Origin: Aminobacter ciceronei
GTDB lineage: Bacteria; Pseudomonadota; Alphaproteobacteria; Rhizobiales; Rhizobiaceae
Assembly (NCBI RefSeq): GCF_014138625.1
Contig: NZ_JACJHY010000010.1
Location: 62,001 to 126,000 of the forward strand
Length of the DNA stretch: 64,000 bases
Direction of reading: 5' to 3'
The number at the start of each line of letters is the position of its first letter. The stretch's first letter is position 1. Under the pieces are notes generated by a model, which worked only from the letters and a program-made list of their open reading frames with translations, searched no databases and was not told the origin of the DNA. Positions 1,663 through 63,021 of this stretch are shown here, piece after piece. A program made the translations under genes and the position numbers.

Positions 1663-1682
1663 GCTAGTCCGTATGACGGATG
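1663..1682 (+). promoter_or_regulatory. Degenerate copy of the island dyad upstream of the MFS gene
   Basis: GCTAGTCC-GTAT-GACGGATG keeps the distal half-site (7 of 8 against GTTAGTCC) and the proximal GATG end, but the inner part of the right arm is changed. It lies 82 bp before the ATG at 1765. It is a weaker match than the other copies and may be fortuitous. Confidence 0.35.
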
Positions 1683-1764
1683 ATCTTTCCCGGCACCGGT
1701 TCGATCTGGTGACAGGCACTCTGCCGCTCAGGCGCCTGCCATCGATCGAGCCGGGGCCAGCATC

Positions 1765-3015
1765 ATGACATCAGACCGAGAAGACCAGCAGCCCGGCCTC
1801 ATGAGCGAGCGGCGCGTGACCATCGTCGGTGCGGTGCTAGCCGGTCTCGGTCCCGCCTCGCTGTCGCTGTTCACGCCGGCCATGCCCGAAATCGTTCATG
1901 CCTTCGGCACCACCGAAGAGGCGGTGAAGATGACGCTCGGGCTGTATTTCGCCGGCTTCGCCCTCACCCAGCTGGTGTGTGGTCCTCTCTCCGACGGATA
2001 TGGCCGCAAGCCGGTGACGTTGGCCTTTCTCGGCATCTACCTTCTCGGCAGCCTGGGCGCGCTGGTCGCGCCCTCCATCGACGTGCTGATCCTGTCGCGG
2101 CTGTTGCAGGGCGCGGGCGCGGCAGTCGGGCTGTCTTTGTCGCGCGCGATCGTGCGCGACCTCTTTGCCCACGAGCAATCAGCACGCATCCTCAACCTGA
2201 TCACGCTGATCCTGGCGCTGGCGCCGGCCATCGCGCCGACAGTCGGCGGTCTGGTCATGGAAGTCGCCGGCTGGCATGCCATCTTCTCGATCATGTTCCT
2301 GATGGGCGTGGCGTCGTTGCTGACGGTCCGTTTCGCGCTGGTCGAAACCGTCGAGCGCGACCCGAGCCGGGTGCGGCTGGGCGCCGTCATGAAAACCTAT
2401 CGCAATTTGCTCGGCAGCGGCTATTTCCTGTTCTCCAGCCTCGTCATCGCCGGCACCCTGGGCGCCTACTACACCCAGGCGACCGTCCTGCCCTTCATCC
2501 TGATGGATCGGCTGGGGCTGACGCCGGCGCAGTTCGGCCTCGCGATGCTGTTCCAGTCGGCCAGCTTCATTTCCGGCTCGCTTGTCATGCGCAGTCTCAT
2601 CCCACGTTATGGTGCCTATCGTATGGTGCCCGTCGGCCTGGGGATCAGCAGCCTCGGGGCTGCTGCCATGGCGGTCTTGCTCGGACTGTACGAGCCAACC
2701 TTCCTGTCGGTCGCGCTGCCCATGGCCATGTTCGTTCTAGGCAATTCATTCGTCATGCCGGCAATGTCTGCCGCGACTGTCGCCGCCTTCCCCGACAGTG
2801 CCGGGGCCGCCTCCTCGCTGAGCGGGTTCCTGCAGATGGGCAGTGGCCTCCTGGGCACTGTCGTCGCCGGTATCCTCGGCGATGCGATGCTGGGCATGTC
2901 CGTCGTCGTGCCGTTGATGGCACTGGGGGCCGTGCTCGCTTGGCTGGCCTGGCGCAAGCTGCCGGAGCCTGCCCTTGCGCGGGCCGTCGTCACCAGGAAG
3001 GCACCGCCGCGCTGA
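1765..3015 (+). CDS. MFS transporter, Bcr/CflA drug-export type
   Basis: Inner-membrane major facilitator protein of 416 residues with about 12 hydrophobic segments. The first segment carries LGPASLSLFTPAMPEI, typical of the Bcr/CflA subfamily. The loop between helices 2 and 3 carries the MFS signature GPLSDGYGRKP, and an RLLQGAGAAVGL motif follows. Members usually export drugs or metabolites by proton antiport; the substrate here is unknown. The start could be 1765 or the ATG at 1801 (MSERRVTIVG), which fits the family length better. It lies between rimO and the island, and a degenerate dyad upstream hints that it may be co-regulated with the island. Confidence 0.85.
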   Translation: MTSDREDQQPGLMSERRVTIVGAVLAGLGPASLSLFTPAMPEIVHAFGTTEEAVKMTLGLYFAGFALTQLVCGPLSDGYGRKPVTLAFLGIYLLGSLGALVAPSIDVLILSRLLQGAGAAVGLSLSRAIVRDLFAHEQSARILNLITLILALAPAIAPTVGGLVMEVAGWHAIFSIMFLMGVASLLTVRFALVETVERDPSRVRLGAVMKTYRNLLGSGYFLFSSLVIAGTLGAYYTQATVLPFILMDRLGLTPAQFGLAMLFQSASFISGSLVMRSLIPRYGAYRMVPVGLGISSLGAAAMAVLLGLYEPTFLSVALPMAMFVLGNSFVMPAMSAATVAAFPDSAGAASSLSGFLQMGSGLLGTVVAGILGDAMLGMSVVVPLMALGAVLAWLAWRKLPEPALARAVVTRKAPPR

Positions 3016-3029
3016 AGCATGCGTCTTTT

Positions 3030-3045
3030 GTTAGCTCTCGCTAAC
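3030..3045. repeat. Perfect short inverted repeat before the operator
   Basis: GTTAGC-TCTC-GCTAAC is a perfect 6-bp inverted repeat with a 4-base spacer, 15 bases after the MFS stop and 23 bases before the perfect dyad. It has no T-tract on either strand. Its arms resemble the outer part (TTAG/CTAA) of the island dyad, so it may be a shortened relative of the operator. Confidence 0.5.
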
Positions 3046-3068
3046 GAATTCGGAAGCTCCTCCCCCTC

Positions 3069-3088
3069 CATCGTCCAAGCGGACGATG
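3069..3088. promoter_or_regulatory. Perfect copy of the island dyad (operator) for the binding-protein gene
   Basis: CATCGTCC-AAGC-GGACGATG is an exact 8-bp inverted repeat with a 4-base spacer, the only fully symmetric copy in the window. It ends 55 bp before the ATG at 3144. Confidence 0.75.
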
Positions 3089-3143
3089 TTTCGGACACAT
3101 GGCCGTGACTGTTTGTCGGTCGAAGTAAGCGGAGGAGAAACGC

Positions 3144-4361
3144 ATGAACTTCCAATGGAATGGTTCCATTACGCGTCGCACTGCCATCGGAATGGTGTCG
3201 GTGGCAGCCCTTGCCTTGTCGGCAGGTATTTCGCAGGCACAGGAGGTCGTCAAGATCGGCGGCATCATGTCGATGACCGGCGGCGGCGCCTCGATCGGCA
3301 AGACCGCCGAAGTGGGCTGGAAGCTGGCCATCGAAGACATCAATGCCGCCGGCGGCATTCTCGGCAAGAAGGCCGAGCTGGTTCTCGGCGACACCATGAC
3401 TGACCCGACCCATGCCGTTGCCGAAGTGCGTCGCCTGATCGAGAACGAAAAGGTCGAGGCGCTCGTCGGCCCGGCAACCAGCCAGGAAACCATTCCGGTC
3501 GTTCCTGTGGCGAGCGAAAAGAAGATCGCCCAGGTTTCTTCTGCTGCCTCGACTCAGCTGACGCCCGAAGCTGGTCCGTTCCACTTCTCGGGCTCGGTCA
3601 CTGGTCTCAATCAGATGAAGCCGAACATCGACTTCGCCATCGACGTGCTGAAGCTCAAGAAGCTGGCGCTGATTTCGGACAATGGCGGCATGTCCAAGGC
3701 TGCCGTGGTCGAGATCGTCGACTACCTCAAGTCGAAGGGCGTCGAGCCGACCGCGGTGCAGGAGTTCGCCTTCCGCACCGAAGACATGACCCCGCAGCTG
3801 TTCCAGATGCGCAGCTCGGGCGCCGAAGCGATCCTTCTGATCAACTCGATCGGCGACGACTCGCGCAAGCTGCTCGAAAACCGCGCCGACATCGGCTGGG
3901 ACGTGCCGGTTCTGGCCAACCAGACGATGACCAACTACGCCGTCGGCAACGTCGCAGTGGTCGGCGAAGACGCCTTCAAGGACGTCTACAGCGTGCAGTT
4001 CGTCGGCATGACCTATTGCCCGAGCGACCCAGTCGGCGAAAACGCCTTCGCCAAGTTCGCCAAGCGCGCAAAGGAACAGGTCGCCGACGTCGACCGCATG
4101 GGCGGTGCCTCGGCGCTGATCCCGTACTACATCCAGCCGATCGTGCTGGCGGCTGCCATCAACGGTTCGGGCAAGACCGACGGCGAGTCGGTCGCTGCCT
4201 GGCTGCAGGCCAATGCCGCGTCCGTCCAGATGCTCACCGGCCCGATCCAGGCGAGCGGCAAAAGCCACTTCCTGCCGGCGCCCGAGTCGATCAAGGTGGT
4301 CAAGAACCCCTACAAGCCGCGCGAAGACGGTCTGGTCGAGCGCGCCGACTGCGGCGCCTGA
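3144..4361 (+). CDS. ABC transporter substrate-binding protein, Liv/HAAT type (orphan)
   Basis: Periplasmic solute-binding protein of 405 residues of the branched-chain amino acid/amide (type 1 peripheral) family. The N-terminus has a twin arginine (residues 11-12), a hydrophobic stretch and a probable cleavage near SQA-QE at about 32-33. The mature part starts VVKIGGIMSMTGGGASIG, the usual HAAT opening. An excellent ribosome site (GGAGGAGAAACGC) fixes the start. No permease or ATPase genes adjoin it. It closely resembles the protein at 43176-44384, sharing EFAFRTEDMTPQLF and the end LVERADC. From its operator I infer uptake of a steroid-derived acid rather than an amino acid; that is not shown by the sequence. 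Confidence 0.88.
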   Translation: MNFQWNGSITRRTAIGMVSVAALALSAGISQAQEVVKIGGIMSMTGGGASIGKTAEVGWKLAIEDINAAGGILGKKAELVLGDTMTDPTHAVAEVRRLIENEKVEALVGPATSQETIPVVPVASEKKIAQVSSAASTQLTPEAGPFHFSGSVTGLNQMKPNIDFAIDVLKLKKLALISDNGGMSKAAVVEIVDYLKSKGVEPTAVQEFAFRTEDMTPQLFQMRSSGAEAILLINSIGDDSRKLLENRADIGWDVPVLANQTMTNYAVGNVAVVGEDAFKDVYSVQFVGMTYCPSDPVGENAFAKFAKRAKEQVADVDRMGGASALIPYYIQPIVLAAAINGSGKTDGESVAAWLQANAASVQMLTGPIQASGKSHFLPAPESIKVVKNPYKPREDGLVERADCGA

Positions 4362-4386
4362 TTTCCTTCTTCATCTGCTGAACGTG

Positions 4387-4420
4387 CGGGCCGGGTCGCA
4401 AGATCCGGCCCGTTTCGTTT
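4387..4420 (+). terminator. Terminator after the binding-protein gene
   Basis: An 8-bp stem (CGGGCCGG with CCGGCCCG) with a 10-base loop is followed by TTTCGTTT. It starts 26 bases after the stop at 4361. Confidence 0.7.
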
Positions 4421-4495
4421 GCACTCTGCCCAAGACTTGTCCACCACTGACACCATGTCAAAAATTCTACGCAACGCATTTCGAATTTGACGACG

Positions 4496-4511
4496 TGTCA
4501 ATTTAATGACA
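4496..4511. promoter_or_regulatory. Inverted repeat, possible operator
   Basis: TGTCA-ATTTAA-TGACA is a perfect 5-bp dyad with an AT-rich spacer in the leader of the LuxR-type gene. It is short, so chance is possible, but its place in an AT-rich promoter-like stretch makes it a candidate binding site. Confidence 0.35.
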
Positions 4512-4553
4512 TAACTGTCGACATTAATCATTTCGCATTCGGGAGGAAGCGCG

Positions 4554-4640
4554 ATGACCGGTTCGAGCCTACGCAGCATGACAACTGGATCGTCGTCCGT
4601 CCGGCATCTTGCCCGACGAGGTTTCCTCCCGCCGTCCTGA
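4554..4640 (+). CDS. Possible small leader ORF (28 codons)
   Basis: An ATG at 4554 is preceded by a near-ideal ribosome site (GGGAGGAAG, 5 bases before the ATG). It opens a 28-codon frame beginning MTGSSLRSMTTG, rich in Ser, Thr and Arg, and stopping at 4640. It lies 127 bases before the LuxR-type gene, in another frame. It could be a leader peptide or an independent small protein. There is no homology evidence, and the strong Shine-Dalgarno is the only support. Confidence 0.3.
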   Translation: MTGSSLRSMTTGSSSVRHLARRGFLPPS

Positions 4641-4767
4641 TCGGCTGACGCCGGGCCGATACCAGGCCCTCGCCAATACAATCGAACTCATGACCTCCTG
4701 GCATGCACCGCGCAGCCGGGAACCGGTCCCGCACGCCCCCGTGCGGCGGATTTTGGGAGCTCCTGCA

Positions 4768-5835
4768 ATGACTTTTCACGCCAGATCGATCGTCGAATTC
4801 GGCCATTTCCTCAACCGCGTCTCTGACAGCCTGATGAACGGCAAGCCGCTGCGCACCCCGCTCGAGCTGATCCGCGAGCAGTTCGACGCCTATGCCGCGG
4901 TGCTGGTGATCGAGGACCGCCTGCGCACCGGCGAGACCTACTACGCCTTTACCGAGATCGACGAGATGATGACCGACACGGCAGGCGCGGCCCTCACTCG
5001 CCCGGCGCAGCTCGCTTATCTCTCCGAACGCTGCCAGCCGATGTCGGCCACCTATGTGCCTACCGACGACACCGCCCGCTACACGCTCTGGGTTTTCCGC
5101 GACCGGTCGGACACCAAGTTCGATGACGATGCAGCCTCGGTCTGCGAAATTCTTGTTTCGCAGTTGGCACGTGGCGTCGAGACGTCCTGGCGCATGGGCG
5201 CCACCGAGGTCGAGCGCCGTCTCTACTCCGACGTCATGGACAAGCTCTACGTCGGTGTCGTCATCCTCGACCATTCCGGCAAGATCGTCCGCGCCTCAGA
5301 CGCGGCGACGCGCCTGCTCGAAGCCCGCGACGGCCTGCAGATCCAGGGCAACAAGCTGCGCGCCACCTCGGCCAAGGAGGACCGCGACTTCCAGACTGCG
5401 GTCAAGGCGGCCTTGCAGATGGCAGCCGACGACGCCGGCACGACTTCGCGGGGCCTGTCGCTGACCAAGCAGTCAGGCTCGCGCAATCTCGGCGTCATCG
5501 TCCGCCCGATCCGCGGCAGCAAGGATAACGCCGCCGCTGCCAACTCGGCGGTCGCTGTCTACATCCGCGATCCTGAAGCGAACCCGGAGGTCGAGGGCGA
5601 GCTCGTGCGCCAGCTGTTCGATCTGACGCCTGCGGAAGCCGCGGTCGCCCGCCGACTGACCGCCGGCCTGTCGCTGGAAGATGCCGCCACCTCGCTCGAC
5701 ATCTCCCGCAACACTGCACGTGCCCATCTGCGCTCGATCTTCTCCAAGAGCGGCATCACGCGCCAGACGGAACTGGTCCGGCTGGTGCTGAACAGCGCCG
5801 TCATCCTCGGCCACGGACCGCGCCAGGCGGCCTGA
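4768..5835 (+). CDS. LuxR-family transcriptional regulator (PAS-like sensor, TeiR-like layout)
   Basis: Cytoplasmic DNA-binding regulator of 355 residues. The C-terminal 70 residues, from about 286 (LTPAEAAVARRLTAGLSLEDAA), form a LuxR/NarL-type helix-turn-helix with the recognition helix around SRNTARAHLRSIFSKSG. The middle region (LYVGVVILDHSGKIVRASDAATRLL) looks like a PAS-type ligand fold. There is no receiver domain and no autoinducer domain. I chose the ATG at 4768, preceded by GGGAG; the frame is open further upstream to 4609 without a good ribosome site. The layout recalls TeiR, the LuxR-type steroid regulator of Comamonas. It shares its C-terminus pattern with the regulator at 46453-47586. 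It is a leading candidate to bind the island dyad. Confidence 0.85.
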   Translation: MTFHARSIVEFGHFLNRVSDSLMNGKPLRTPLELIREQFDAYAAVLVIEDRLRTGETYYAFTEIDEMMTDTAGAALTRPAQLAYLSERCQPMSATYVPTDDTARYTLWVFRDRSDTKFDDDAASVCEILVSQLARGVETSWRMGATEVERRLYSDVMDKLYVGVVILDHSGKIVRASDAATRLLEARDGLQIQGNKLRATSAKEDRDFQTAVKAALQMAADDAGTTSRGLSLTKQSGSRNLGVIVRPIRGSKDNAAAANSAVAVYIRDPEANPEVEGELVRQLFDLTPAEAAVARRLTAGLSLEDAATSLDISRNTARAHLRSIFSKSGITRQTELVRLVLNSAVILGHGPRQAA

Positions 5836-5970: not shown

Positions 5971-5972
5971 GG

Positions 5973-7719: not shown

Positions 7720-7751
7720 TGTCACCTCCGGTGGCCGAAGCGCCGTGCGCC

Positions 7752-10976: not shown

Positions 10977-10996
10977 CATCGTCTGAATGAACTAAC
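10977..10996 (-). promoter_or_regulatory. Island dyad upstream of ipdC
   Basis: On the plus strand it reads CATCGTCT-GAAT-GAACTAAC; toward ipdC it reads GTTAGTTC-ATTC-AGACGATG. It lies in the 124-bp gap between the upstream SDR stop and ipdC, 96 bp before the ipdC ATG. Confidence 0.7.
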
Positions 10997-14786: not shown

Positions 14787-14806
14787 CATCGTCCAAATGT
14801 GGGATG
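14787..14806. promoter_or_regulatory. Island dyad between divergent units (GTGGGATG variant)
   Basis: CATCGTCC-AAAT-GTGGGATG lies 90 bp before the leftward acyl-CoA dehydrogenase operon and 77 bp before the rightward SDR at 14884. Toward the left it presents GGACGATG as the proximal half. The other half is a variant shared with the site at 17663. Confidence 0.65.
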
Positions 14807-17054: not shown

Positions 17055-17074
17055 CATCCTCCAAACGAACGATG
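17055..17074. promoter_or_regulatory. Island dyad between two divergent SnoaL genes
   Basis: CATCCTCC-AAAC-GAACGATG lies 50 bp before the leftward gene at 17004 and 56 bp before the rightward gene at 17131. Both halves end in GATG when read toward the adjacent gene, so it could serve both. Confidence 0.65.
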
Positions 17075-17662: not shown

Positions 17663-17682
17663 CATCGTCCGAACGTGGGATG
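17663..17682 (+). promoter_or_regulatory. Island dyad (GTGGGATG variant) upstream of an SDR
   Basis: CATCGTCC-GAAC-GTGGGATG, 47 bp before the ATG at 17730. It has the same variant right arm as the site at 14787. Confidence 0.65.
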
Positions 17683-19658: not shown

Positions 19659-20405
19659 ATGGCGCGTATGGCACAGATGGATGGCAGCGCAGGCGCAGAA
19701 TATCTCGATCGCGACGGCTCGGTCCGCGCGTCGACCAATCCGCGCAAGGAGCTGGTGCGCGAACAGCTGATCGACATCGCCGCGGAGCTGTTCGACAGCA
19801 AGGGCTACGTCCAGACCAGCATCAACGACATCGCCCAGGCGCTCGGCCTCGGCCGCTCGGCCGTCTACCACTACTTCCGCAACAAGGAAGAAATGCTGGC
19901 AGCACTCGTCGAGTCGGAAGCGCTGACGCCGTCACACCGGCTGCAGGAGCTGATGGCCGAGCCCGGCCTGTCGCCAACCGAGCGACTGCGCCGCGCCATC
20001 GTCGACGGCATCGTCCGCCGCCTGTCTTCCGGCTCGCGCTTCATCCTGTTGTCGCGGCTCGAAACCCAGATCCCCGAGGCGCTCGGTCCGCTCTACAACC
20101 AGGGCCGTCGCCACATCTATGATTTCTACGTCCGCTGCATCTCCGACGGTATCACGTCAGGCGAGTTTCGCACTGTCGATCCCAAGGTTACCGCCTTTGC
20201 GGTGATCGGCATGGCCAACTGGACATCGCGCTGGTACTCGCCATCAGGCGCCAAGACACCGCAGGAGATCGGCGAGATCATTGCCGACATGGCTCTGGCC
20301 GGCCTGCGTGCCCATCACGACCAGCCGCGCGATGCCGAAGCCGTGCGCCAGACCATCTCGGGACTGCGCCAGCAGATCGACGAGCTGGAAAAGCTGGTCA
20401 AATAG
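19659..20405 (+). CDS. TetR-family transcriptional regulator, KstR2-like
   Basis: DNA-binding repressor-type protein of about 248 residues. The N-terminal TetR helix-turn-helix is at about 54-76 (TSINDIAQALGLGRSAVYHYFRNKEEML). The C-terminal ligand domain includes ANWTSRWYSPSGAKTPQEIGEIIADMALAGL, which resembles the W-S-RWY-P-G block of KstR2, the HIP-regulon repressor of actinobacteria. It ends in a short predicted coiled coil (GLRQQIDELEKLVK). Starts at a TTG (19650) or the ATGs at 19659, 19668 and 19677 are all possible; I picked 19659. The ligand is plausibly a CoA thioester of the pathway, by analogy only. Confidence 0.8.
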   Translation: MARMAQMDGSAGAEYLDRDGSVRASTNPRKELVREQLIDIAAELFDSKGYVQTSINDIAQALGLGRSAVYHYFRNKEEMLAALVESEALTPSHRLQELMAEPGLSPTERLRRAIVDGIVRRLSSGSRFILLSRLETQIPEALGPLYNQGRRHIYDFYVRCISDGITSGEFRTVDPKVTAFAVIGMANWTSRWYSPSGAKTPQEIGEIIADMALAGLRAHHDQPRDAEAVRQTISGLRQQIDELEKLVK

Positions 20406-21071: not shown

Positions 21072-21109
21072 AGGAGCGCCGTGCGTCCATTGGGACGAAG
21101 GGCGCTCCT
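21072..21109. terminator. Hairpin enclosing a dyad, between thiolase and VOC genes
   Basis: AGGAGCGCC at 21072-21080 pairs with GGCGCTCCT at 21101-21109, a 9-bp stem. The 20-base loop is itself the dyad at 21081-21100. For leftward transcription from the thiolase it could act as a partial terminator; there is no long T-run. Confidence 0.5.
21081..21100 (-). promoter_or_regulatory. Island dyad upstream of the VOC gene
   Basis: GTGCGTCC-ATTG-GGACGAAG keeps the inner CGTCC-N4-GGACG palindrome but not the outer CAT/ATG. It ends only 22 bp before the VOC ATG, closer than any other copy. Confidence 0.5.
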
Positions 21110-22460: not shown

Positions 22461-22480
22461 CATCGTCTGAAAAGACTAAC
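22461..22480 (-). promoter_or_regulatory. Island dyad upstream of the thiolase
   Basis: CATCGTCT-GAAA-AGACTAAC on the plus strand; toward the thiolase it reads GTTAGTCT-TTTC-AGACGATG. It lies 126 bp before the TTG start, in the 232-bp gap upstream of the thiolase. Confidence 0.72.
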
Positions 22481-25699: not shown

Positions 25700-26500
25700 T
25701 CAGGCGGCGCGGACGCCGGGAGGATTGCCCTTCAGGACGGTGGCACGGACATTGTGCGGGTCGAGCCTGGCGATGATCGCCATCTGCTCCTCGGTCGGCG
25801 CCGCGGTGGTGGTCATGCCTTCGGCGCGCAGCAGCGGGAAGCCGGTCGCGTCCTGCACCTGCTCGAAGGTGACGCCAGGATGCAGCGACAGCACCTGCGC
25901 CGCATGATCAGGACCGTTGAAATCGAACACGCAGAGGTCGGTGATGACTACGCCGAGCTTGACGTCGGCGGGCTTGGCGCCTTCCGGCCAGTTCTTGGCG
26001 TTGTAGCCTACGCTCGCCACCACATCGACCTCACCCTCGACGAAGGTGCGCTTCGAGTGGCTGGGCAGGAACATCGAATTCTTGTGGCAGATCGAGTTGC
26101 CGGGGAAGCCGCGGACGCCAAGCATGGCGACCTTAGGCTTCTGGAACTCTCCGCCAAGTGCGGAGATGTTGCCCTGACCGTAGCGGTCGACCTGCACTGG
26201 CGTCACCATGGCGTGGCGGCGCCCGCTCCAGACGCTGTCGAAGACCCTGCCGTAAGGCATCCAGCCGGAAAACTTCGGCTTGTAGTCGCCGCGCGGCCCG
26301 AGCGGGATCGGGTCCTCGACAAGATAGGCCTCGCCGTCGGTCATCATGATGCCGGGCGCGCAGGTGAGCTTGGCAAGACCGGCCGCAAGACGCGGCAGCG
26401 GGCCGATGCCGGTGGCGAGAACCTCACCATCGGAGGCCCAGGCCTGTGCACCGACAGCTACGATCAGTTCGGCAAGCGTGAATTCTTTTGCAGTCGTCAT
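25700..26500 (-). CDS. ipdB: IpdB, beta subunit of COCHEA-CoA (steroid ring C) hydrolase
   Basis: Class I CoA-transferase-fold protein of 266 residues. Landmarks [74 protein letters not shown] and [25 protein letters not shown] match mycobacterial IpdB (Rv3552) throughout. With IpdA it hydrolytically opens the last steroid ring (ring C) of COCHEA-CoA; despite the fold it is not a CoA transferase. It lies 11 bases downstream of ipdA on the same strand, the usual order. The ATG at 26500 gives the expected length. Confidence 0.92.
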
Positions 26501-26511: not shown

Positions 26512-27390
26512 TCAGAAAATGGGGAGCGGCAGGGCGCGGATCTTGGCTTCGCCGCCAACGCTCGAGGCGTAGCTGGCATCGCCGCCCTTCACATATTGGT
26601 CGAAATAGCGCTGCCAGCCGCCCTCTTCACCAGCTGACGCGGCGTAGTCCTTGAGGTGGCCCATGTCCCAACCATAGGCCTCATGCGCAGCCGTCGGATG
26701 CGCACCGAGCGGTGCCGACACCACGCCAGTCACCAGGCAGCGTTCGAACAGCTGGCTCTTGGCCTTGTCGGAGTGTTCATCCCCGATGCGGTCGACCAGC
26801 ACCTCGGTGGTAACGAACACCTTGTCGGCGGCACGAGCGAACAGGCCATCGAAGAACGGATCCGGACCGTCGGTCTGGGTGTTGCCCAGCCGGTCGGCGC
26901 GGCTCGCATGGATCAGCGCCACGTCGAGCTTGATCGCCGGCATCGCCAACAGCACTTCGCCGTCGTCATAGGGCGACTTCACCGTCTTGAAGTGCGGGTT
27001 GTACTTCATGACGTCGGAGCCGAGGCCGACGCGGGTCGCCGCAAACGGCAGGTTGTGGCCGGCTGCCTGCAGGCCGAGCAGCAGCAGGCCCTCGTCCAGC
27101 TCCGACACCTCGACCGCTCCGGCTTCGCGCGCCTTGCGGAAGTAGGGTTCGATCGGCATCACGTCGAGCGACACGAAGCCGTAGATCAGCTTCTTGACCT
27201 TGCCCGCAGCACAAAGCATGCCGATTTCCGGCCCACCATAAGCCACCAGCGTCAGGTCCTTGAGGTCCGAGCGCAGGATCTCGCGCACCAGCGCCATCGG
27301 CTTGCGCCGCGGACCCCAGCCGCCGAAGCCGATCGTCATGCCGTCGCGCAGCTGGGCGACGACCGCTTTCAGGTCCATTTCCTTGTTCAT
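26512..27390 (-). CDS. ipdA: IpdA, alpha subunit of COCHEA-CoA (steroid ring C) hydrolase
   Basis: Class I CoA-transferase-fold protein of 292 residues. GMTIGFGGWGPRRKPMALVREILRSDLKDLTLVAYGGPEIGMLC and KVKKLIYGFVSLDVMPIE follow mycobacterial IpdA (Rv3551) almost residue by residue. The glutamate of ELDEG at residue 100 appears to match the glutamate implicated in catalysis in IpdA. It acts in the cytoplasm with IpdB on the last ring. It is preceded by the FadB-type gene (49-base gap). The ATG at 27390 has AGGA 5 bases upstream; MDLKAV four codons later is an alternative. Confidence 0.92.
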   Translation of the reverse strand: MNKEMDLKAVVAQLRDGMTIGFGGWGPRRKPMALVREILRSDLKDLTLVAYGGPEIGMLCAAGKVKKLIYGFVSLDVMPIEPYFRKAREAGAVEVSELDEGLLLLGLQAAGHNLPFAATRVGLGSDVMKYNPHFKTVKSPYDDGEVLLAMPAIKLDVALIHASRADRLGNTQTDGPDPFFDGLFARAADKVFVTTEVLVDRIGDEHSDKAKSQLFERCLVTGVVSAPLGAHPTAAHEAYGWDMGHLKDYAASAGEEGGWQRYFDQYVKGGDASYASSVGGEAKIRALPLPIF

Positions 27391-30624: not shown

Positions 30625-30644
30625 CATCGTCTGATGGGACTAGT
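30625..30644 (-). promoter_or_regulatory. Island dyad for the ipdAB operon
   Basis: CATCGTCT-GATG-GGACTAGT; toward the operon it reads ACTAGTCC-CATC-AGACGATG. It lies 84 bp before the ATG at 30540. A second copy 50 bp further on faces the opposite way. Confidence 0.75.
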
Positions 30645-30694: not shown

Positions 30695-30714
30695 CTTAGT
30701 CCCTTCGGACGATG
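30695..30714 (+). promoter_or_regulatory. Island dyad for the rightward SDR
   Basis: CTTAGTCC-CTTC-GGACGATG lies 52 bp before the ATG at 30767. It has the consensus orientation, GATG toward the gene. Confidence 0.75.
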
Positions 30715-31540: not shown

Positions 31541-31560
31541 CTTAGTCTGTGCAGACGATG
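31541..31560 (+). promoter_or_regulatory. Island dyad for the acyl-CoA synthetase
   Basis: CTTAGTCT-GTGC-AGACGATG lies 66 bp before the ATG at 31627 and 18 bp after the stop of the preceding SDR. It is an excellent match to the consensus. Confidence 0.75.
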
Positions 31561-39919: not shown

Positions 39920-39939
39920 CATCGTCCATGCGGACTACC
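39920..39939 (-). promoter_or_regulatory. Island dyad for the first Liv operon
   Basis: CATCGTCC-ATGC-GGACTACC; toward the operon it reads GGTAGTCC-GCAT-GGACGATG. It lies 133 bp before the ATG at 39786. Confidence 0.75.
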
Positions 39940-39976: not shown

Positions 39977-39996
39977 GCTAGTTCGTTTGCAGGATG
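39977..39996 (+). promoter_or_regulatory. Degenerate island dyad before the GMC oxidoreductase
   Basis: GCTAGTTC-GTTT-GCAGGATG has the consensus orientation but differs at 2 of 8 positions in each half. It lies 32 bp before the ATG at 40029. Confidence 0.4.
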
Positions 39997-43093: not shown

Positions 43094-43113
43094 CATCGTT
43101 CGATCGGGTGAGC
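43094..43113 (-). promoter_or_regulatory. Island dyad, GCTCACCC subclass, for the esterase
   Basis: Toward the gene it reads GCTCACCC-GATC-GAACGATG, 57 bp before the ATG at 43036. It is almost identical to the site at 44514. Confidence 0.7.
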
Positions 43114-44439: not shown

Positions 44440-44459
44440 CATCGTCCATAAGGACCATT
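44440..44459 (-). promoter_or_regulatory. Island dyad for the second binding-protein gene
   Basis: CATCGTCC-ATAA-GGACCATT; toward the gene it reads AATGGTCC-TTAT-GGACGATG. It lies 55 bp before the ATG at 44384. Confidence 0.7.
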
Positions 44460-44513: not shown

Positions 44514-44533
44514 CCTCACCCGATCGAACGATG
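44514..44533 (+). promoter_or_regulatory. Island dyad, CCTCACCC subclass, for the monooxygenase
   Basis: CCTCACCC-GATC-GAACGATG lies 73 bp before the GTG at 44607. Apart from the first base it equals the esterase site at 43094. Confidence 0.7.
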
Positions 44534-46412: not shown

Positions 46413-46432
46413 CATCGTTCGAACGGGCGAGC
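46413..46432 (-). promoter_or_regulatory. Island dyad, GCTCGCCC subclass, for the flavin reductase
   Basis: Toward the gene it reads GCTCGCCC-GTTC-GAACGATG, 58 bp before the ATG at 46354. It shares the unusual distal half with the sites at 43094 and 44514. Confidence 0.7.
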
Positions 46433-46452: not shown

Positions 46453-47586
46453 TTAGCTCAGCTCGTCGACCGAGCGCAGCAGCAGCCGCACGAGCTCACT
46501 CTGCCTGCTCACTCCGGTCTTGGAAAACACCATGCGCAAATGCGCCTTGGCGGTGTTCTTGGTGATGCCGAGCGCGGCACTGGCATCGTCGAGGTCGAGT
46601 CCCTGCCCCATCAGCGCCGCAAGCTCGGCTTCTGCCGGCGTCAGGCCAAACAGCCTGACAAGCACCGCAGGCTGCGGCGCAACGTTGCTGCCGGCGTCGG
46701 CGATGATGACGAGTGCCGCGCCGCGCAGCGGCGCATGCAGCTTGGCCGAATGCGGTGCCGGCCTGACGACGAGCCCGAGCGCCTCGCCGCAGGAACGATG
46801 AATCGAAAACGCGCGCGAGCCGGCAAAGGAGGCGTCGCTCGTCTCGGCAATCTCGGCCACCGCCGTGGTGAACGCACCGCTCGGTCCGGCCTCGTCGAGC
46901 AGGCGCAGCCTGCCGCGATCGTTCTTTAGCACGTCCCTTTCGGCCAGGATCGCTTCGGCCTGTGGCGTTGCCTGCAGAATGCGGCAGTCACGGTCGACAA
47001 TGATGGCGCCCACCGCCAACCGCCCCAGCGCACCCGCGAACAGCTCGCGCTCGGCCTCGAGCCCGTTCAGCCTGAGGAATAGCCCCATCGCCTGCGTCAG
47101 ATGCGGCAACAGCCGTCGGAACGACTCTCGTTCGGCCGTACCGAAATTGTCCCGACCCAGCACACGTGTCGCACGCATCCGCACCCGCGCCCCGGAGGGC
47201 TCGACGATATCGGCACCCACGACATGCATCCAGCCCGAGCCGGTCATGAAACTCGTCATGAATTCCGAGCGGGAAAATCCTCCCTCGCCGACAAGCTCGG
47301 CAAGCGTCGTAACCTTGCCGAGCGGCAGGTCGATGAACGGGTCTTGCGTGTAGAGGTCGTTGTAACGCGCGATGCGCTCTTCCGACGCCGCCCCGGAATA
47401 GATCGCACCCGGTCGGTCGCGGCGCTGCCGCTCGATGATCAGCGTACTGCTTTCAGCATCAACCGATGCCCGCAACCCCTTGAGAAAACTGTCGAAGGGT
47501 TTTGCTTCGCCGATACCGGCATAGAGCAGTTCGACCAGCCGGTCGTGATCGGGCGCGGCACCAGATACTTCCGCGCGATCGGCCAC
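46453..47586 (-). CDS. LuxR-family transcriptional regulator (second, TeiR-like layout)
   Basis: A 377-residue regulator whose C-terminal LuxR-type helix-turn-helix begins at about 315 (LTPAEAELAALMGQGLDLDDASAALGITKNTAKAHLRMVFSKTG). The N-terminal 300 residues hold no receiver or autoinducer domain. A segment (VGAIIVDRDCRILQATPQAEAIL) looks PAS-like. The C-terminus has the same pattern as the regulator at 4768, notably SRQSELVRLLL versus TRQTELVRLVL. It begins with a GTG at 47586, two bases after the SDR stop, with no clear ribosome site, so its translation may be coupled to the SDR. It is a candidate reader of the dyad. Confidence 0.84.
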   Translation of the reverse strand: MADRAEVSGAAPDHDRLVELLYAGIGEAKPFDSFLKGLRASVDAESSTLIIERQRRDRPGAIYSGAASEERIARYNDLYTQDPFIDLPLGKVTTLAELVGEGGFSRSEFMTSFMTGSGWMHVVGADIVEPSGARVRMRATRVLGRDNFGTAERESFRRLLPHLTQAMGLFLRLNGLEAERELFAGALGRLAVGAIIVDRDCRILQATPQAEAILAERDVLKNDRGRLRLLDEAGPSGAFTTAVAEIAETSDASFAGSRAFSIHRSCGEALGLVVRPAPHSAKLHAPLRGAALVIIADAGSNVAPQPAVLVRLFGLTPAEAELAALMGQGLDLDDASAALGITKNTAKAHLRMVFSKTGVSRQSELVRLLLRSVDELS

Positions 47587-48469: not shown

Positions 48470-48489
48470 ATTCGTCTCTTCGGACGATG
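48470..48489. promoter_or_regulatory. Island dyad between fadD3 and the SDR-luxR unit
   Basis: ATTCGTCT-CTTC-GGACGATG lies 98 bp before fadD3 and 77 bp before the leftward SDR. It shows consensus orientation toward fadD3. Confidence 0.72.
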
Positions 48490-48587
48490 CTGGCCGCCCG
48501 CCGACGCCTATGTTCCCGCCAAACTAGCCCGGTGACCGTCCGCGGCCGCCATACCGTCGAACAGGCCCAGTGCCTCCAGGTAGACAG

Positions 48588-50174
48588 ATGATCTCAGAAG
48601 ACGCCGACTGGAAGTTCACCACCATTCCTGCCCTCTGCGCGCGGGCGGCCGAGCTCTATGGCACACGCACGGCAGTTGAAGACAACGGCGTCGTACTGAA
48701 CTTCGCCGAGCTCGACACGATGCGCAAGCGCGTCGCCAAGGCGATGATCGCAGCCGGTGTCGAGAAGGGCGACCGCATCATGGTCTGGGCGCCCAACACC
48801 TGGAAATGGTTCGCCACAGCCCTTGGCCTCGTCACCGCAGGCGCCGTGCTCATTCCCGCCTCCACCCGCTTCAAGGGCGCGGAGATCGCCGAGCTGGTCA
48901 AGCGCAGCGGCACCTCGGTGCTGTTTTCGGTCGGCGACTTCCTCAACACCTATTACCCTGACCAGCTCCGTGCCGAGACGCGCGACCTGCTGCGCGAAGT
49001 GGTCGTCATCGGCGAAGGCAGCAAAGGCGATCGCGACTGGGAGAGCTTCGTTGCATCGGGCGACAGCATCAGCGATGCCGAGCTTGCCGCACGCGAGGCC
49101 ACTGTCGGCCCGGACGATCTCTGCGACATGCTGTTCACCTCGGGCACCACGGGTTATCCCAAGGGCGTCATGTACGGTCACCAGCAGTGCCTTCGGGCGA
49201 TCGATGCCTGGGCAACGCGTGTCGGTATCCGCGAGCATGACCGCATCCTGGTCATCCCCCCTTTCTTCCACGCCTTCGGCTATCGCTCCGGCGCCATCGT
49301 TTCGCTGATGCGTGGCGCGGTCCTGATGCCGCATCTCACCTATGATGCCGGCGAAATCCTCAAGCGCGTCGCCGAAGAGAAGATCAGCGTCATCCCCGGT
49401 CCGCCCGCCATCTTCCAGGGCATGCTCCAGCATCCGGACCTGGCAAAATTCGACACCTCCAGCCTGCGCCTCGGCGTCACCGGCGGCGCGGTCGTGCCGT
49501 CGATCCTCATCCGGCGCATGCGCGAGGAACTTGGCTTCGCCGGCGTTGTAAACGGCTATGGGCTGACCGAGTGCGGCGGCTACGGCACCATGTGCCTGGC
49601 GTCGGACCCGGATGAGGTGATTGCCAACACTGCCGGCAAGGCAGCTCCCGGCGTGGAAGTGCGTATCATGGGCGACGACGGCCATTTCCTGCCCGACGGC
49701 AAGCCCGGCGAAGTGGTGATCCGCGGCTACATCGTCATGAAGGGCTACTTCAACGATCCAAAATCGACGGCCAAGACCATCGACCCCGAGGGCTGGCTGC
49801 ACACCGGTGATATCGGTTACTTCGACAGCGACGGCAACCTGCGCATCGAGGACCGTCTCAAGGACATGTACATCACCGGTGGCTTCAACTGCTATCCGGC
49901 CGAGATCGAGCGCATCCTGAGTCAGCATCCGGCCATCGGCATCGTTGCCGTGATCGGTGTGGCAGACGAGCGTCTCGGCGAGGTCGGCAAGGCCTATGTG
50001 GTGCTGCGCCCGGGCACCAGCGCCACCGAGAAGGACATCATCGACTGGTCGCGCGCCAACATGGCCAACTACAAATGCCCGCGCAGCGTCGAGATCCGTC
50101 CGTCCCTGCCCACCAGCCCGCAAGGCAAGGTGCTCAAGAACATTCTGCGCGAAGAGGTCCCCCAAGACGCCTGA
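48588..50174 (+). CDS. fadD3: FadD3-type HIP-CoA ligase
   Basis: AMP-forming CoA ligase of 528 residues. FTSGTTGYPKG is at 183-193, then FFHAFGYRSGAIVSLMRGAVLMPH, YGLTECGGYGTMC and GWLHTGDIGYFDSDGNLRIEDRLKDMYITGGFNCYPAEIERIL. The catalytic lysine is in SPQGKVLKN (Lys514). The succession of blocks matches mycobacterial FadD3 (Rv3561), which adds CoA to HIP and commits the C/D rings to degradation. The ATG at 48588 follows AGG. It lies across a dyad from the LuxR/SDR unit and faces a convergent operon with fadA6. Confidence 0.88.
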   Translation: MISEDADWKFTTIPALCARAAELYGTRTAVEDNGVVLNFAELDTMRKRVAKAMIAAGVEKGDRIMVWAPNTWKWFATALGLVTAGAVLIPASTRFKGAEIAELVKRSGTSVLFSVGDFLNTYYPDQLRAETRDLLREVVVIGEGSKGDRDWESFVASGDSISDAELAAREATVGPDDLCDMLFTSGTTGYPKGVMYGHQQCLRAIDAWATRVGIREHDRILVIPPFFHAFGYRSGAIVSLMRGAVLMPHLTYDAGEILKRVAEEKISVIPGPPAIFQGMLQHPDLAKFDTSSLRLGVTGGAVVPSILIRRMREELGFAGVVNGYGLTECGGYGTMCLASDPDEVIANTAGKAAPGVEVRIMGDDGHFLPDGKPGEVVIRGYIVMKGYFNDPKSTAKTIDPEGWLHTGDIGYFDSDGNLRIEDRLKDMYITGGFNCYPAEIERILSQHPAIGIVAVIGVADERLGEVGKAYVVLRPGTSATEKDIIDWSRANMANYKCPRSVEIRPSLPTSPQGKVLKNILREEVPQDA

Positions 50175-56280: not shown

Positions 56281-56300
56281 AATCGTCCAAAGGGACTAAA
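56281..56300 (-). promoter_or_regulatory. Island dyad for the echA-fadE31-fadA6 operon
   Basis: AATCGTCC-AAAG-GGACTAAA; toward the operon it reads TTTAGTCC-CTTT-GGACGATT. It lies 68 bp before the ATG at 56212, in the 130-bp gap after the aldo-keto reductase gene. Confidence 0.72.
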
Positions 56301-59495: not shown

Positions 59496-59501
59496 CAGCC
59501 C

Positions 59502-60206
59502 TTACTCCGCCGCGACAGCCGGAGCGTTCAGCTTCTCGTCCAGTTCGGAGGCGAGGCACGAGAACTTCACCTGGCCGCGCTCGATGATCATGGCGCGGTC
59601 GGCATAGGGGGCGGTAACAGCCAGATGCTGCTCGACGATGACAACCGCCGTGCCGGTCTGCGCCCAGCGACGCAGGAAGGCGAGGATCGGTGGCAGCAGC
59701 GCCTGGGCGAGGCCCATCGACGGCTCGTCGCAGAGCAGCACCTTGGGCTGGGCGATGAAGGCTTGGCCGAGCGCCAGCATCTGCTGCTGACCGCCTGAGA
59801 GATCACGAGCGTAGAGTTTCTGCTTTTCCTTCAGGATCGGGAAGACCGAGTAGATTTCCTCGACCGCGTTGTTGAAGCCGGCACGGTCGCCACGCCGGGC
59901 GGCGGCGCCCATGCGCAGATTGTCGAACACGCTGAGCTCGGGAAACACACGGTGCCCGTCAAGCACAAGGCGCAAGCCCGACTGCGCCACCTTCTCCGGC
60001 GCGACCCCGCCGATCGCCTTGCCGTCGAGCAGGATCTCGCCGCTGTCGGGTTTGTTGAAGCCGGCGATCGCCCGCATCAGCGTCGACTTGCCGGCGCCAT
60101 TCTCGCCGCCGATGAGCAGGATCTCGCCCGCCTTTGCGGTCAGCGACACATCGCGCAGCACCGGGATGGTGCCATAGCCTGCAACCAGATTCTTGACCTC
60201 AAGCAT
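59502..60206 (-). CDS. LivF-type ATP-binding protein (second system)
   Basis: ABC ATPase of 234 residues: Walker A GGENGAGKSTLM (GEN instead of GRN), signature LSGGQQQMLALGQAFI and Walker B VLLCDEPSMGLAQ. It overlaps the fused LivM-LivG gene by 8 bases. The ATG at 60206 gives MLEVKNLVAGYG. It is the second ATPase of the importer encoded here. Confidence 0.88.
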   Translation of the reverse strand: MLEVKNLVAGYGTIPVLRDVSLTAKAGEILLIGGENGAGKSTLMRAIAGFNKPDSGEILLDGKAIGGVAPEKVAQSGLRLVLDGHRVFPELSVFDNLRMGAAARRGDRAGFNNAVEEIYSVFPILKEKQKLYARDLSGGQQQMLALGQAFIAQPKVLLCDEPSMGLAQALLPPILAFLRRWAQTGTAVVIVEQHLAVTAPYADRAMIIERGQVKFSCLASELDEKLNAPAVAAE

Positions 60207-62007
60207 GGCGCGACCCCACGAACATATGCTGCACAGCCGGGTCCTTGGCGACTACGTCCGGCTTGCCTGAAGAAACCACTCGGCCCTGTTCCAGCACAGT
60301 GATGGTGTCGGCAATGCCCCACACCAGGTCGAGATCGTGCTCGACCAGGATGACTGTCTTGCCCATCTGGCGGCTCAGGAACTTGACGAGATTGGCGAAG
60401 TTGGTGCGCTCGCTCTGCGACAGGCCGGCAGCCGGCTCGTCGAACAAGACGATGGTTGCCTCCTTGAGCACCGTGCGCATCACTTCGACCAGACGACGTT
60501 GGCCGTGCGACAGCAGCGTCGCGCTGTCCTGGCCAAAGCTCTTCTCCATCGCCTTGGCGAGCGCGGTCATGTCAGCGCTGGCAGGGCCGACGCGGGCATC
60601 GATGCCGATCTTCAAGTTGTCCCACAGCGACATCTGGCTGAAGATGCGCGGCGCCTGGAAGGTGCGGCCGAGGCTCATATTGGCGATGCGGTCGGCCGCC
60701 ATGTTGGTCGCGTCTACCCCGTTGATCATGAAGGAGCCGGTGTTCAGGCGCGACAGACCGCTCAGCACGTTGAGCAGGCTGGTTTTGCCCGAGCCGTTGG
60801 CGCCGATCAGTCCGTGCACCTCACCCTTGCGAACCTTGAGGTCGACAGCACTGACAGCCACCACCTCGCCGAACTTCTTGGTGCCGTTGCGCACCTCGAC
60901 GGCGATCTCCTCGCTCGGCTCGCGGACCGTCTTGCCGGCCTGCAGGTCGGCGAGAAAACCGTCGATGCGGAAGGCCTGCTCGCCGCCGCCGGTCTGCTTG
61001 CGCTTGGCGCGCAGGCGCTCGACCGAGCCGACGATGCCATCGGGGAAAGCCATGACCGCAACAAGCGTCAGGCAGCCATACATCAAGAGGCGATACTCGA
61101 CGAAACCGGCCAAGAGGATGTTCGGCAGGATGTAGACGATCCAGATGCCGATGATCGGACCGAGCATCTGTCCGCGACCGCCGACAACGACCGCGAAGAA
61201 GAACACGAAAGACAGCTCGATGTTGAAGCCCTGCGGGCTGACGAAAGCTACCGTCGGCAAGTAGAGGATACCGCAGATACCGGTCCCGATCGACGCGACG
61301 ATGAAGGCGGTGAAGCGCATCACTCCCGGCTTGATGCCCAGGGAACGCGCCGCTTCCGGGCTCAGCGCCGCCACGAACATCATACGGCCGAGCTTCGAGC
61401 GCCGAATACCGTAATGGACGAACAGCGCGATCATCGGGAATACCGCAACCGCGATCGCCAGCAGCGACATGCTACCCACGATCGGATTGGTCAGCGCCGG
61501 TACGGTGACGCTGATACCGTTGATGCCGTTGGTCCACTTGTCGAGCGTCACCAGAAGCTGCGGGAAAACGATCGCGGCACTCATGGTTACGAAGCCGAGG
61601 TGGAAGCCTTGTACACGCAACGCCGGCAGGGCAAACAGCAGGCCGCCAAGCATGGCAGCGACGATGCCACCCATCGCGGCGGCTGCAAACGACCAGCCAT
61701 GCAGGCCGAACAGGATCGCAGCGACATAGGCGGCAAGTCCGAGGATGGCGCCCTGGCCGAACGACTTCTGGCCAGCATCGACGAACAGCATGTTCTGGAA
61801 GATGGCTGCTGCGATATAGATGTTCACCAGCTGGAACGTGTGAATCCAGTAGGAGTTGCCGGCGATCACCGGGCCGAAGCCGGTGATCGCGATCAGCGCC
61901 ACGCCGATCCAGACCTGCGTCAGGTCGGAGTTGAAGCGGCCTTTCGGCTTGGTTTCAGCCATGGAAACGGGTCCGGTTTGTACGTTCGCGGTCGCCTGCA
62001 TGATCAC
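60199..62007 (-). CDS. Fused LivM-LivG protein of a Liv/HAAT transporter
   Basis: A 602-residue protein with a permease half (residues about 25-320, including FVDAGQKSFGQGAILGLAAYVAAI and GFHLGFVTMSAAIVFPQLLV) followed by an ABC ATPase half (about 350-600). The ATPase half has Walker A LIGANGSGKTSLLN, signature LLSHGQRRLVEVMR and Walker B IVLFDEPAAGLS. This M-to-G fusion is known in the HAAT family but is less common than separate genes. The start is GTG 62007, in GTGA with the livH stop, or ATG 62001. Together with LivH and LivF it makes a full importer lacking its own binding-protein gene. Confidence 0.86.
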   Translation of the reverse strand: MIMQATANVQTGPVSMAETKPKGRFNSDLTQVWIGVALIAITGFGPVIAGNSYWIHTFQLVNIYIAAAIFQNMLFVDAGQKSFGQGAILGLAAYVAAILFGLHGWSFAAAAMGGIVAAMLGGLLFALPALRVQGFHLGFVTMSAAIVFPQLLVTLDKWTNGINGISVTVPALTNPIVGSMSLLAIAVAVFPMIALFVHYGIRRSKLGRMMFVAALSPEAARSLGIKPGVMRFTAFIVASIGTGICGILYLPTVAFVSPQGFNIELSFVFFFAVVVGGRGQMLGPIIGIWIVYILPNILLAGFVEYRLLMYGCLTLVAVMAFPDGIVGSVERLRAKRKQTGGGEQAFRIDGFLADLQAGKTVREPSEEIAVEVRNGTKKFGEVVAVSAVDLKVRKGEVHGLIGANGSGKTSLLNVLSGLSRLNTGSFMINGVDATNMAADRIANMSLGRTFQAPRIFSQMSLWDNLKIGIDARVGPASADMTALAKAMEKSFGQDSATLLSHGQRRLVEVMRTVLKEATIVLFDEPAAGLSQSERTNFANLVKFLSRQMGKTVILVEHDLDLVWGIADTITVLEQGRVVSSGKPDVVAKDPAVQHMFVGSRHA

Positions 62008-62882
62008 ACCCGCCTTGCGCCGACGCGCCCGAACAGGCCTTGCGGCCGGAACATCAGGATCAGCACCAGAACCAGCAACGATGCGAGGTCCTGATAGGCA
62101 CCACCGACCTTGTAGGCGGTCAGCATCGCCACCACGCCCACCAGAGGTCCACCGATCAGCGTGCCGGCGTTGGAACCGATGCCGCCGACGACGGCGGCGA
62201 CGAAGCCGTTGAGCACATATTTCAGGCCGGCGTCAGGGCTGACCGAGATCACAGGAGCAACGAGGAAGCCGACGGTACCGACCATCAGGCCGCTGATTGC
62301 AAAGGAGATGAGCTGCAGCCGGCGCACCGGCAGGCCGGCAGCACGCGCGGCGTCGAAATCCTGCGACAGCGCGCTGATGGCGAGACCGATGAAAGTGCGG
62401 CGCAGGAAGTAGCGCAACGCGAAAAACCAGAAGATCATCGCAGCGATCGCCAAGGCATAGGCACCCGGCGTGCGGGTCCCGAAGATGCGGAAGCTCGGCA
62501 CGACGCTCTGGACGGAATAGGCGAACGGCCCCTGTGTGATCATCAGCAACGCCGCCACGATCACCGAGACCGACACCGTCGAAATCAGCCAGCTGTCCTG
62601 CTCGACCGAGGAGCGCAGCGGCAAAAGCGTGATGTAGCCCTGGACGGCGACGACGGCGGCGATGCCCAGGCCAGTCAGCAGCAGCATCAGACTCCACTGG
62701 CCAAGCCCGACCTGGTTGGCCAGGAAATAGGCGGCGAAGCCGCCGAGGATGAACATGTTGCCTTGGGCGAAGTTGAAGATGTTGGTCGCGCCATGGACGA
62801 TATTGAAGCTCATCGCGATGGTGGCAAAGATCGACCCGATGGCGATCCCGCGTATCACGATGATCAGTATTTCGCTGAGCAT
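62004..62882 (-). CDS. LivH-type permease (second system)
   Basis: Inner-membrane permease of 292 residues with 7-8 hydrophobic segments. IAIGSIFATIAMSFNIVHGATNIFNFAQGNMFILGGFAAYFLANQ opens the protein and is typical of LivH. A SFAISGLMVGTVGFLVAPVISVSPDAGLKYVLNGFVAAVVGGIGSNAGTLIGGPLVGVV block follows. GGGAGG ends 7 bases before the ATG at 62882. It begins the operon, 119 bp from a dyad. Its binding protein may be one of the orphan proteins at 3144 or 43176. Confidence 0.88.
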   Translation of the reverse strand: MLSEILIIVIRGIAIGSIFATIAMSFNIVHGATNIFNFAQGNMFILGGFAAYFLANQVGLGQWSLMLLLTGLGIAAVVAVQGYITLLPLRSSVEQDSWLISTVSVSVIVAALLMITQGPFAYSVQSVVPSFRIFGTRTPGAYALAIAAMIFWFFALRYFLRRTFIGLAISALSQDFDAARAAGLPVRRLQLISFAISGLMVGTVGFLVAPVISVSPDAGLKYVLNGFVAAVVGGIGSNAGTLIGGPLVGVVAMLTAYKVGGAYQDLASLLVLVLILMFRPQGLFGRVGARRV

Positions 62883-62943
62883 AAGCTCGCCTCCCTGACC
62901 TCACTTATGAACCCGCCCTGCCTGCACCGCGGGCAAGCCCGGA

Positions 62944-62978
62944 AAGCTGACGAGGAAGGCGTATTTTGAGGTCAGCTT
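62944..62978. repeat. Inverted repeat in the livH promoter region
   Basis: AAGCTGAC at 62944-62951 pairs with GTCAGCTT at 62971-62978, 19 bases apart. It lies between livH and its dyad at 63002. It could be a hairpin in the leader; no T-run follows. Chance cannot be excluded. Confidence 0.35.
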
Positions 62979-63001
62979 ATGCGTGCCAGCGACGCCCGCA
63001 A

Positions 63002-63021
63002 CATCGTTCGAACGGACTAAC
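63002..63021 (-). promoter_or_regulatory. Island dyad for the second Liv operon
   Basis: CATCGTTC-GAAC-GGACTAAC; toward livH it reads GTTAGTCC-GTTC-GAACGATG. It lies 119 bp before the ATG at 62882. Confidence 0.75.

Follow-up and report, generated by a model that had tools for sequence, protein, structure and literature searches.

Which protein governs a set of steroid genes that share one short DNA motif is the question raised by a 64-kb window of the Aminobacter ciceronei genome (the window being the whole stretch analysed, G000:C10:62001-126000, in a genome of 6.77 Mb and 96 contigs; G, C and L numbers are our handles for genomes, contigs and loci). By its gene content, the window looks like an Aminobacter cluster for steroid C/D-ring (HIP) catabolism, and many of its transcription units carry a 20-bp dyad, hereafter the box. 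The box is conserved among related genomes, stands in a fixed register to a -10-like element, and co-occurs with the gene of a LuxR-type protein, LuxR2. We consider it highly probable that the box is a conserved operator that defines a regulon, most likely that of a TeiR-like LuxR-family activator, here LuxR2, with LuxR1, a second such protein of the island, probably acting on the same box.

The box and its conservation

In gene orientation, the box consensus is (G/C)(T/C)TAGTCC-nTTC-GGACGATG, with two 8-bp half-sites flanking a 4-bp spacer. An earlier sequence-only reading of the window had listed 20 copies, all of which are present where it placed them. A half-site matrix trained on these 20 sites and then used to rank the same sites assigned 17 of them ranks 1-17 in the window, and the proposed spacer length held, with 17 matches above 14 at a spacing of 4 bp vs no more than 5 at each of the other spacings in the range 0-11. 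The plain pattern CATCGTYYNNNNRRACKAWS, allowing up to two mismatches, matched the window 26 times, compared with a mean of 2.2 and a largest count of 8 in shuffled sequences. An oriented matrix, trained on the 18 sites that had been called good and listed down to a score of 13, placed 15 of the 20 above 16 and gave 15.3 to the sites at 14787 and 17663. The two copies described as degenerate, 1663..1682 (+; 13.1) and 39977..39996 (+; <13; other genera 0/2), are indeed weak, but 21081..21100 (-; 14.1; other genera 0/5) is weak as well; none of the three was accepted, and the good sites therefore number 17 rather than 18.

For alignment, 157 intergenic sites scoring at least 16.5 in the islands and three extra stretches were reduced to 123 non-redundant sites with flanks less than 60% identical. 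The spacer sequence, which had been taken to vary, is not free, as T occupies dyad position 10 in 78 and position 11 in 82 of these sites. The suggested direction of the motif, with GATG toward the gene, was borne out: among 141 asymmetric intergenic sites above 16, a gene start lies within 300 bp on the GATG side in 126, only on the other side in 5, and on neither side in 10. With sensible start placement, the listed sites are intergenic as claimed, except that 14787 falls inside one mis-called start. The claimed distance of 22-133 bp to the start codon applies to the sites other than 22461 and 1663, which lie 285 and 247 bp upstream by a ribosome-binding-site rule but about 30 and 82 bp upstream with the starts chosen in that reading. 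One unlisted match above 16 in the window is internal to an open reading frame (60435-60454, 16.2), within an ABC permease/ATPase gene; it recurs at the corresponding place in G207 and G031 and more weakly in G051 and G053, which probably reflects coding constraint.

Conservation was assessed with a matrix trained on the window alone and applied to promoters in 13 family genomes of other genera, for genes with at least 45% identity and at least 200 bp of DNA available upstream. Scores above 16 occurred at 86 of 127 promoters of box-target orthologs vs 4 of 231 promoters of orthologs of box-less window genes (p 2e-45), the 127 including doubtful targets that gave no match (glyoxalase 0/5, SDR_h 0/5, SDR_g 0/7, GMC1 0/2, SnoaL_d 0/2). 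When sites are selected by score, they are found again before ECH_b in all 17 box genomes, before thiolase_a in 15, SBP1 in 13, SBP2 and FadD3 in 12 each, and the IpdC-like gene in 11. Within Aminobacter (60 pairs, G000-G207 omitted), half-site identity is 96%, compared with 55% for the ungapped 30-bp flanks. The comparison of intergenic with coding hits, which had been proposed as a check, yielded 167 intergenic and 20 open-reading-frame-internal matches above 16, though only about 20% of the DNA is non-coding.

Across the whole genome, the directional pattern YTAGTYYNNNNRRACGATG matches exactly at 8 places, 6 of them in the window, and with one mismatch at a further 15, 3 of them in the window; the reversed control matches 8 times in all. 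Both exact matches outside the window lie on C5, one before an SDR gene and the other before an SMP-30-type gene that has a LysR gene and a thiolase nearby. The SDR gene, far from the island, has its box about 50 bp before the start in three Aminobacter-group genomes (G000:C5:150958 = L034 10001; L141 9943; L146 10206; counterparts in G207 and G051), and the regulon is therefore not confined to the island. A looser symmetric pattern has four exact matches outside the window, two of them inside open reading frames (C39, C41). The held-out promoters, the conservation across genera, and the 6 of 8 exact genomic matches in the window all agree with the proposal that transport, CoA ligation and ring-opening operons form one regulon. 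The statement that almost every transcription unit is controlled by the box proved slightly too strong: many units do carry it, but the TetR gene does not, and the 20 listed sites include three doubtful ones. That reading had not chosen a binding protein; the evidence points to LuxR2, probably with LuxR1, rather than to the TetR.

Promoter register and the candidate regulator

Past the box, the columns of the 123 aligned sites are nearly featureless except from +21 to +26, with A at +22 in 67 sites, T at +21 in 40 and T at +26 in 51; no other offset has A in more than 43 sites, and the mean A count is 26. A -10-like element begins 21 bp past the box, and if this hexamer is read from -12, the last box base lies at -33 and the dyad centre at -42.5. 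Class II LuxR-type activators use dyads of about 20 bp centred near -42.5, and in sequence register, as given by the peak at +21 to +26, the box is placed like such a site. This fixed register favors an activator because a repressor needs no such register.

The exact box pattern CATCGTYYNNNNRRACTAAS occurs in 15 of 297 genomes of the family and its reversed control in 3. LuxR2 orthologs (E <= 1e-88) are present in 17 of the same genomes, the best other genome reaching 9.8e-30. Exact boxes were found in 14 of the 17 LuxR2 genomes vs one of the 280 others (G284, one site; Fisher p 3e-20), and the three LuxR2 genomes without the exact pattern, G031, G049, and G235, hold 6, 5, and 11 matches above 16, vs an expectation of no more than 0.1 from permuted matrices.

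LuxR2 has a C-terminal GerE helix-turn-helix (PF00196, 30.8 bits; cut-off 23.5) and a PAS domain (PF00989, 23.8 bits; cut-off 22.6); these were its only Pfam matches, none being to an autoinducer-binding domain, so by this test it is not a quorum-sensing LuxR. Its structure, predicted from a two-row alignment, has a mean pLDDT of 45.9. The GerE match of LuxR1, at 21.5, falls just below the same cut-off. The gene for SBP1, a periplasmic binding protein, immediately precedes that of LuxR2, in the same orientation and with a gap of 293-415 bp, in all 12 genomes in which both are called (window region 3144-5835), and this constant adjacency points to a possible link between uptake and sensing.

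In the mechanism that we propose, a LuxR2 dimer would grip the two 8-bp half-sites through its C-terminal GerE helix-turn-helix, at a box centred near -42.5 and overlapping a poor -35 element, and would recruit RNA polymerase, in the manner of class II activation, to the -10 element starting 21 bp past the box. Sensing of a steroid ring intermediate would presumably fall to the N-terminal part and PAS domain of LuxR2, and LuxR1 probably reads the same box. A single signal would thereby induce the genes for uptake (ABC systems, binding proteins), CoA ligation, ring opening, and beta-oxidation together, along with at least one unlinked dehydrogenase gene.

Boxes outside the family and competing readings

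Relatives of LuxR2 were found in 6 of 385 genomes of the class (E <= 1e-35), in 37 plasmid records, and in 49 of 398 genomes of the phylum (E <= 1e-40; seven at 1e-90 or better), and relatives of the luciferase-like monooxygenase (LLM) of the island in 22 plasmid records. From these, 12 plasmid regions, five class genomes, and five phylum genomes were chosen for their LuxR2 or LLM relatives rather than sampled. Boxes above 18, for which permuted matrices give an expectation of no more than 0.1 per stretch, occur in five plasmid regions (Caballeronia 5, one Sphingobium region 4, Vibrio alfacsensis 3, Cupriavidus necator C39 1, Burkholderia arboris 1; none in the other seven), in one class genome (G622 1; none in G338, G465, G562, and G542), and in four phylum genomes (G947 8, G730 7, G964 6, G745 2; none in G944). 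Some, including three in Vibrio, stand immediately at the starts of catabolic genes; in Caballeronia, G730, and B. arboris, the boxes close to IpdA lie about 1 kb upstream. The register recurs outside the family: of 43 oriented readings scoring above 17.5, in which three symmetric places each count twice, 26 have A at +22. In a Sphingobium plasmid region (L219 20330-22745), boxes stand beside two adjoining LuxR2-like genes annotated as hypothetical proteins.

The recognition helix common to all 17 LuxR2 proteins reads NTARAHLRSIF(S/A)KSG. Three Novosphingobium loci with NTAKVQLR (N. aromaticivorans pNL2, PP1Y, and ES2-1) have no canonical box and instead carry one CATAACCC-N4-GGGTTATG-like dyad each immediately in front of LLM, with TA at +21/+22. 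TA stands at the same offsets in three sphingomonad loci with NTARSHLR, where the site before LLM is TCTGATCC-N4-GGAYGATG. Counts of these variant boxes are descriptive only because the patterns were drawn from the same loci; the register is the independent part.

Among the competing explanations, we regard it as improbable that the dyad is the operator of the island TetR protein, acting as a KstR2-like repressor released by a CoA-thioester intermediate. A site at the regulator's own promoter is usual, although not universal, for KstR2-type TetR operators; the TetR promoter has a box above 16 in one of 10 other-genus genomes, and no palindrome of its own was obvious by eye in 15 aligned TetR upstream regions. 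The TetR ortholog does occur in 16 of the 17 LuxR2/box genomes (E <= 1e-97), and co-occurrence alone therefore does not decide the regulator. The protein also resembles KstR2 structures weakly (E 1.8e-12), many other TetR chains being closer, and KstR2 governs C/D-ring genes in Actinobacteria (PMC8399759). However, G031 is boxed without a TetR match, though its contig ends nearby, and the distant box loci, seen as stretches of 20-60 kb, show no TetR ortholog. These absences, within the DNA covered, together with the box-free promoter and the fixed register to the -10-like element, which suits an activator, led us to disfavor TetR as the binder.

That LuxR1 and not LuxR2 is the main binder seems less probable still. 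LuxR1 and SDR_j lie behind box 48470 with a 2-bp gap between them, and the GerE-type helix of LuxR1 is close to that of LuxR2, but only G000 and G207 among the 297 family genomes encode a full-length LuxR1. Boxes remain in G143, which has a fragment, and in G051, which lacks LuxR1 and still has six exact matches, and LuxR1 as sole binder is disfavored for this reason. The fixed distance to the -10-like element would also fit an extended promoter element of an alternative sigma factor, a very unlikely reading given that the 20-bp dyad extends to about -52 and occurs with LuxR2 genes, and that Pfam scans recognised no sigma-factor gene in the island. A chance or codon-usage artefact is hardly credible: loose versions are common, the pattern with up to two mismatches having been rejected as unspecific after 477 matches genome-wide vs 89 for its reverse, and one match in the window lies inside an open reading frame, but shuffles, permuted matrices, and held-out promoters contradict it, as do six stretches of the same genome not picked for matches (120 kb), none of which holds a match above 14. 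Ten further stretches of this genome, fetched because they contained matches, provide no fair control.

Several observations weigh against LuxR2 as the activator. TetR, as noted, co-occurs with the box almost as well. LuxR2 has no box within 250 bp of its own start (0/10), and because that start also lies 293-415 bp behind SBP1, autoregulation is uncertain. G338, G465, and G562 have the helix NTARAHLR and yet no box above 18 near the gene, and NTARSHLR adjoins TCTGATCC-type sites in the three sphingomonad loci but canonical boxes in G964 and Burkholderia arboris. A clean rule pairing NTARSHLR with TCTGATCC boxes thus fails, since these proteins sit beside two kinds of box. Moreover, tesR-like genes are stated to occur only in C. 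testosteroni (PMC6895838), while TeiR-like genes have been reported in Pseudomonas stutzeri Chol1 (PMC8399759).

With LuxR2 retained as the favored reader, a broader idea is that of a phylum-wide "steroid box" code, in which one TeiR-type LuxR family would read a 20-bp box near -42.5 in Alpha-, Beta-, and Gammaproteobacteria, the half-site changing with the helix, most clearly NTARAHLR with TAGTCC/GGACGATG vs NTAKVQLR with TAACCC/GGGTTATG. For this idea, we see the chances as evenly balanced, given the two kinds of box that adjoin NTARSHLR genes.

The island, known systems, and meaning

The accepted sites and principal genes are collected in Table 1. For ten of the listed sites (3069, 10977, 14787, 22461, 30625, 31541, 39920, 48470, 56281, and 63002), the promoters recur in other genera with scores above 16. 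The genes behind 1663, 43094, 44440, 44514, and 46413 have no usable other-genus ortholog, and their sites were observed inside the genus only, apart from one weaker match in G055 for the hydrolase behind 43094.

Table 1 Boxes and principal genes of the window (box scores from the oriented matrix; n/n, other-genus orthologous promoters scoring above 16)
Feature	Position	Strand	Context	Score; conservation or match
Box	3069..3088	+	perfect palindrome, before SBP1 (LuxR2 behind)	22.9; 10/10
Box	10977..10996	-	before NMO/IpdC-like gene	20.2; 8/10
Box	14787..14806	.	between divergent ACAD_b and SDR_c	15.3; ACAD_b 4/4, SDR_c 3/4
Box	17055..17074	.	near-symmetric, between two divergent SnoaL genes	20.1; genus-conserved, other genera 0/2
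Box	17663..17682	+	before SDR_e; higher score on opposite strand	15.3; 1/6
Box	22461..22480	-	before thiolase_a	21.5; 5/11
Box	30625..30644	-	before zinc ADH gene heading FadB/IpdA run	21.1; 7/7
Box	30695..30714	+	before SDR_h	24.2; genus only, other genera 0/5
Box	31541..31560	+	before acyl-CoA ligase 1	21.9; 6/7
Box	39920..39939	-	before SBP2 and its ABC genes	20.7; 9/9
Box	43094..43113	-	divergent distal half, before alpha/beta hydrolase	16.9; three genus members and one other
Box	44440..44459	-	before SBP3	19.9; genus only
Box	44514..44533	+	divergent distal half, before LLM	17.3; G000 and G207
Box	46413..46432	-	divergent distal half, before flavin reductase	18.7; G000 and G207
Box	48470..48489	.	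between FadD3-type ligase and SDR_j-LuxR1 pair	21.6; ligase 10/11, SDR_j 4/7
Box	56281..56300	-	before ECH_b	19.6; 13/13
Box	63002..63021	-	before second ABC permease/ATPase operon	23.4; 6/7
LuxR2	4768..5835	+	355 aa, PAS and GerE; proposed binder	
TetR protein	19668..20405	+	weighed as binder, not favored	
CoA-transferase family protein	26512..27390	-		PF01144
LuxR1	46453..47586	-	377 aa; probable second reader of the box; helix NTAKAHLR	
FadD3-type acyl-CoA ligase	48570..50174	+		NF005801, 663.7 bits (cut-off 657)

Domain searches of the window also revealed acyl-CoA dehydrogenases, thiolases, SnoaL proteins, two branched-chain-type ABC systems, and three binding proteins. A hydratase matching NF005925 (364.6 bits; cut-off 260) is one that we take to be EchA20-type, the NMO-family protein behind box 10977 is presumably IpdC-like, and the CoA-transferase family protein presumably IpdA-like; the adjacent 25700..26500 (-), which matched no Pfam or NCBIfam family, we take to be IpdB-like by position only. 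LuxR1 is 91% identical to a protein of Aminobacter anthyllidis and 90% identical to one of A. carboxidus. KshA_C (PF19298) was found in none of the 17 LuxR2-carrier genomes, but the 14 controls of that search gave no match either; the model does match three sphingomonad proteins. With their FadD3-type and Ipd-like genes, the LuxR2 carriers may be scavengers of indane acids left by other steroid degraders.

The lux box is a 20-bp dyad centred near -42.5 and read by the GerE helix-turn-helix of class II LuxR activators. The island box shares the dyad length, the centre, and the type of helix-turn-helix but differs in half-site sequence, and LuxR2, unlike quorum-sensing LuxR proteins, has a PAS match and no autoinducer-binding domain match. 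The closest parallel in kind is TeiR/TesR of Comamonas testosteroni, a LuxR-type activator of steroid genes (PMC6678751, PMC8700777, PMC8399759) reported since 2004 (cited in PMC6678751). Like TeiR/TesR, LuxR2 is encoded in a steroid degradation cluster, surrounded by the FadD3-type ligase, EchA20-type hydratase, and CoA transferase genes, and is proposed to activate most of the genes of its cluster. TeiR, however, is described as a polar membrane protein with kinase activity, and we liken LuxR2 to it by description, not by sequence.

The segment 44544-47586, with LLM, a flavin reductase, and LuxR1, resembles the progesterone pdc cluster of Caenibius (PMC12239570). In the pdc clusters of Caenibius and Novosphingobium (Saro_3594/Saro_3595), LLM likewise adjoins a LuxR gene, and the window LLM and LuxR1 are 60% and 33% identical to the pNL2 proteins; the pNL2 regulator differs in its helix, NTAKVQLR, and its changed box, and the available text of PMC12239570 describes no operator. 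The KstR2 regulon of Actinobacteria similarly spans C/D-ring degradation genes as one unit (PMC8399759, PMC6678751), but KstR2 is a TetR repressor, whereas the evidence from the island favors a LuxR activator. EdcR of Caenibius tardaugens offers a palindromic site at steroid-gene promoters of an alphaproteobacterium, which differs in being TnnCnnTACnAnTnGTAnnGnnA, overlapping the -10, and serving a TetR repressor (PMC8700777). The operators proposed in PMC8700777 and PMC12882949 belong to TetR or AraC regulators and differ from the box. In the literature surveyed, which took in few subscription papers, we found no operator described for TeiR/TesR and no description of the GGACGATG box. A LuxR activator is of a kind already known, and the operator and regulon appear to be new.

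A 2021 review described the regulation of bile-acid degradation in Proteobacteria as largely unknown (PMC8399759). The box brings an operator candidate together with a named regulator candidate, a predicted start of transcription, and a list of targets, and it offers a compact test of helix-to-half-site specificity for the LuxR family. If the operator reading is true, steroid regulons would be predictable by genome scanning, and if the phylum-wide code is also true, they would become readable from sequence in many proteobacteria.

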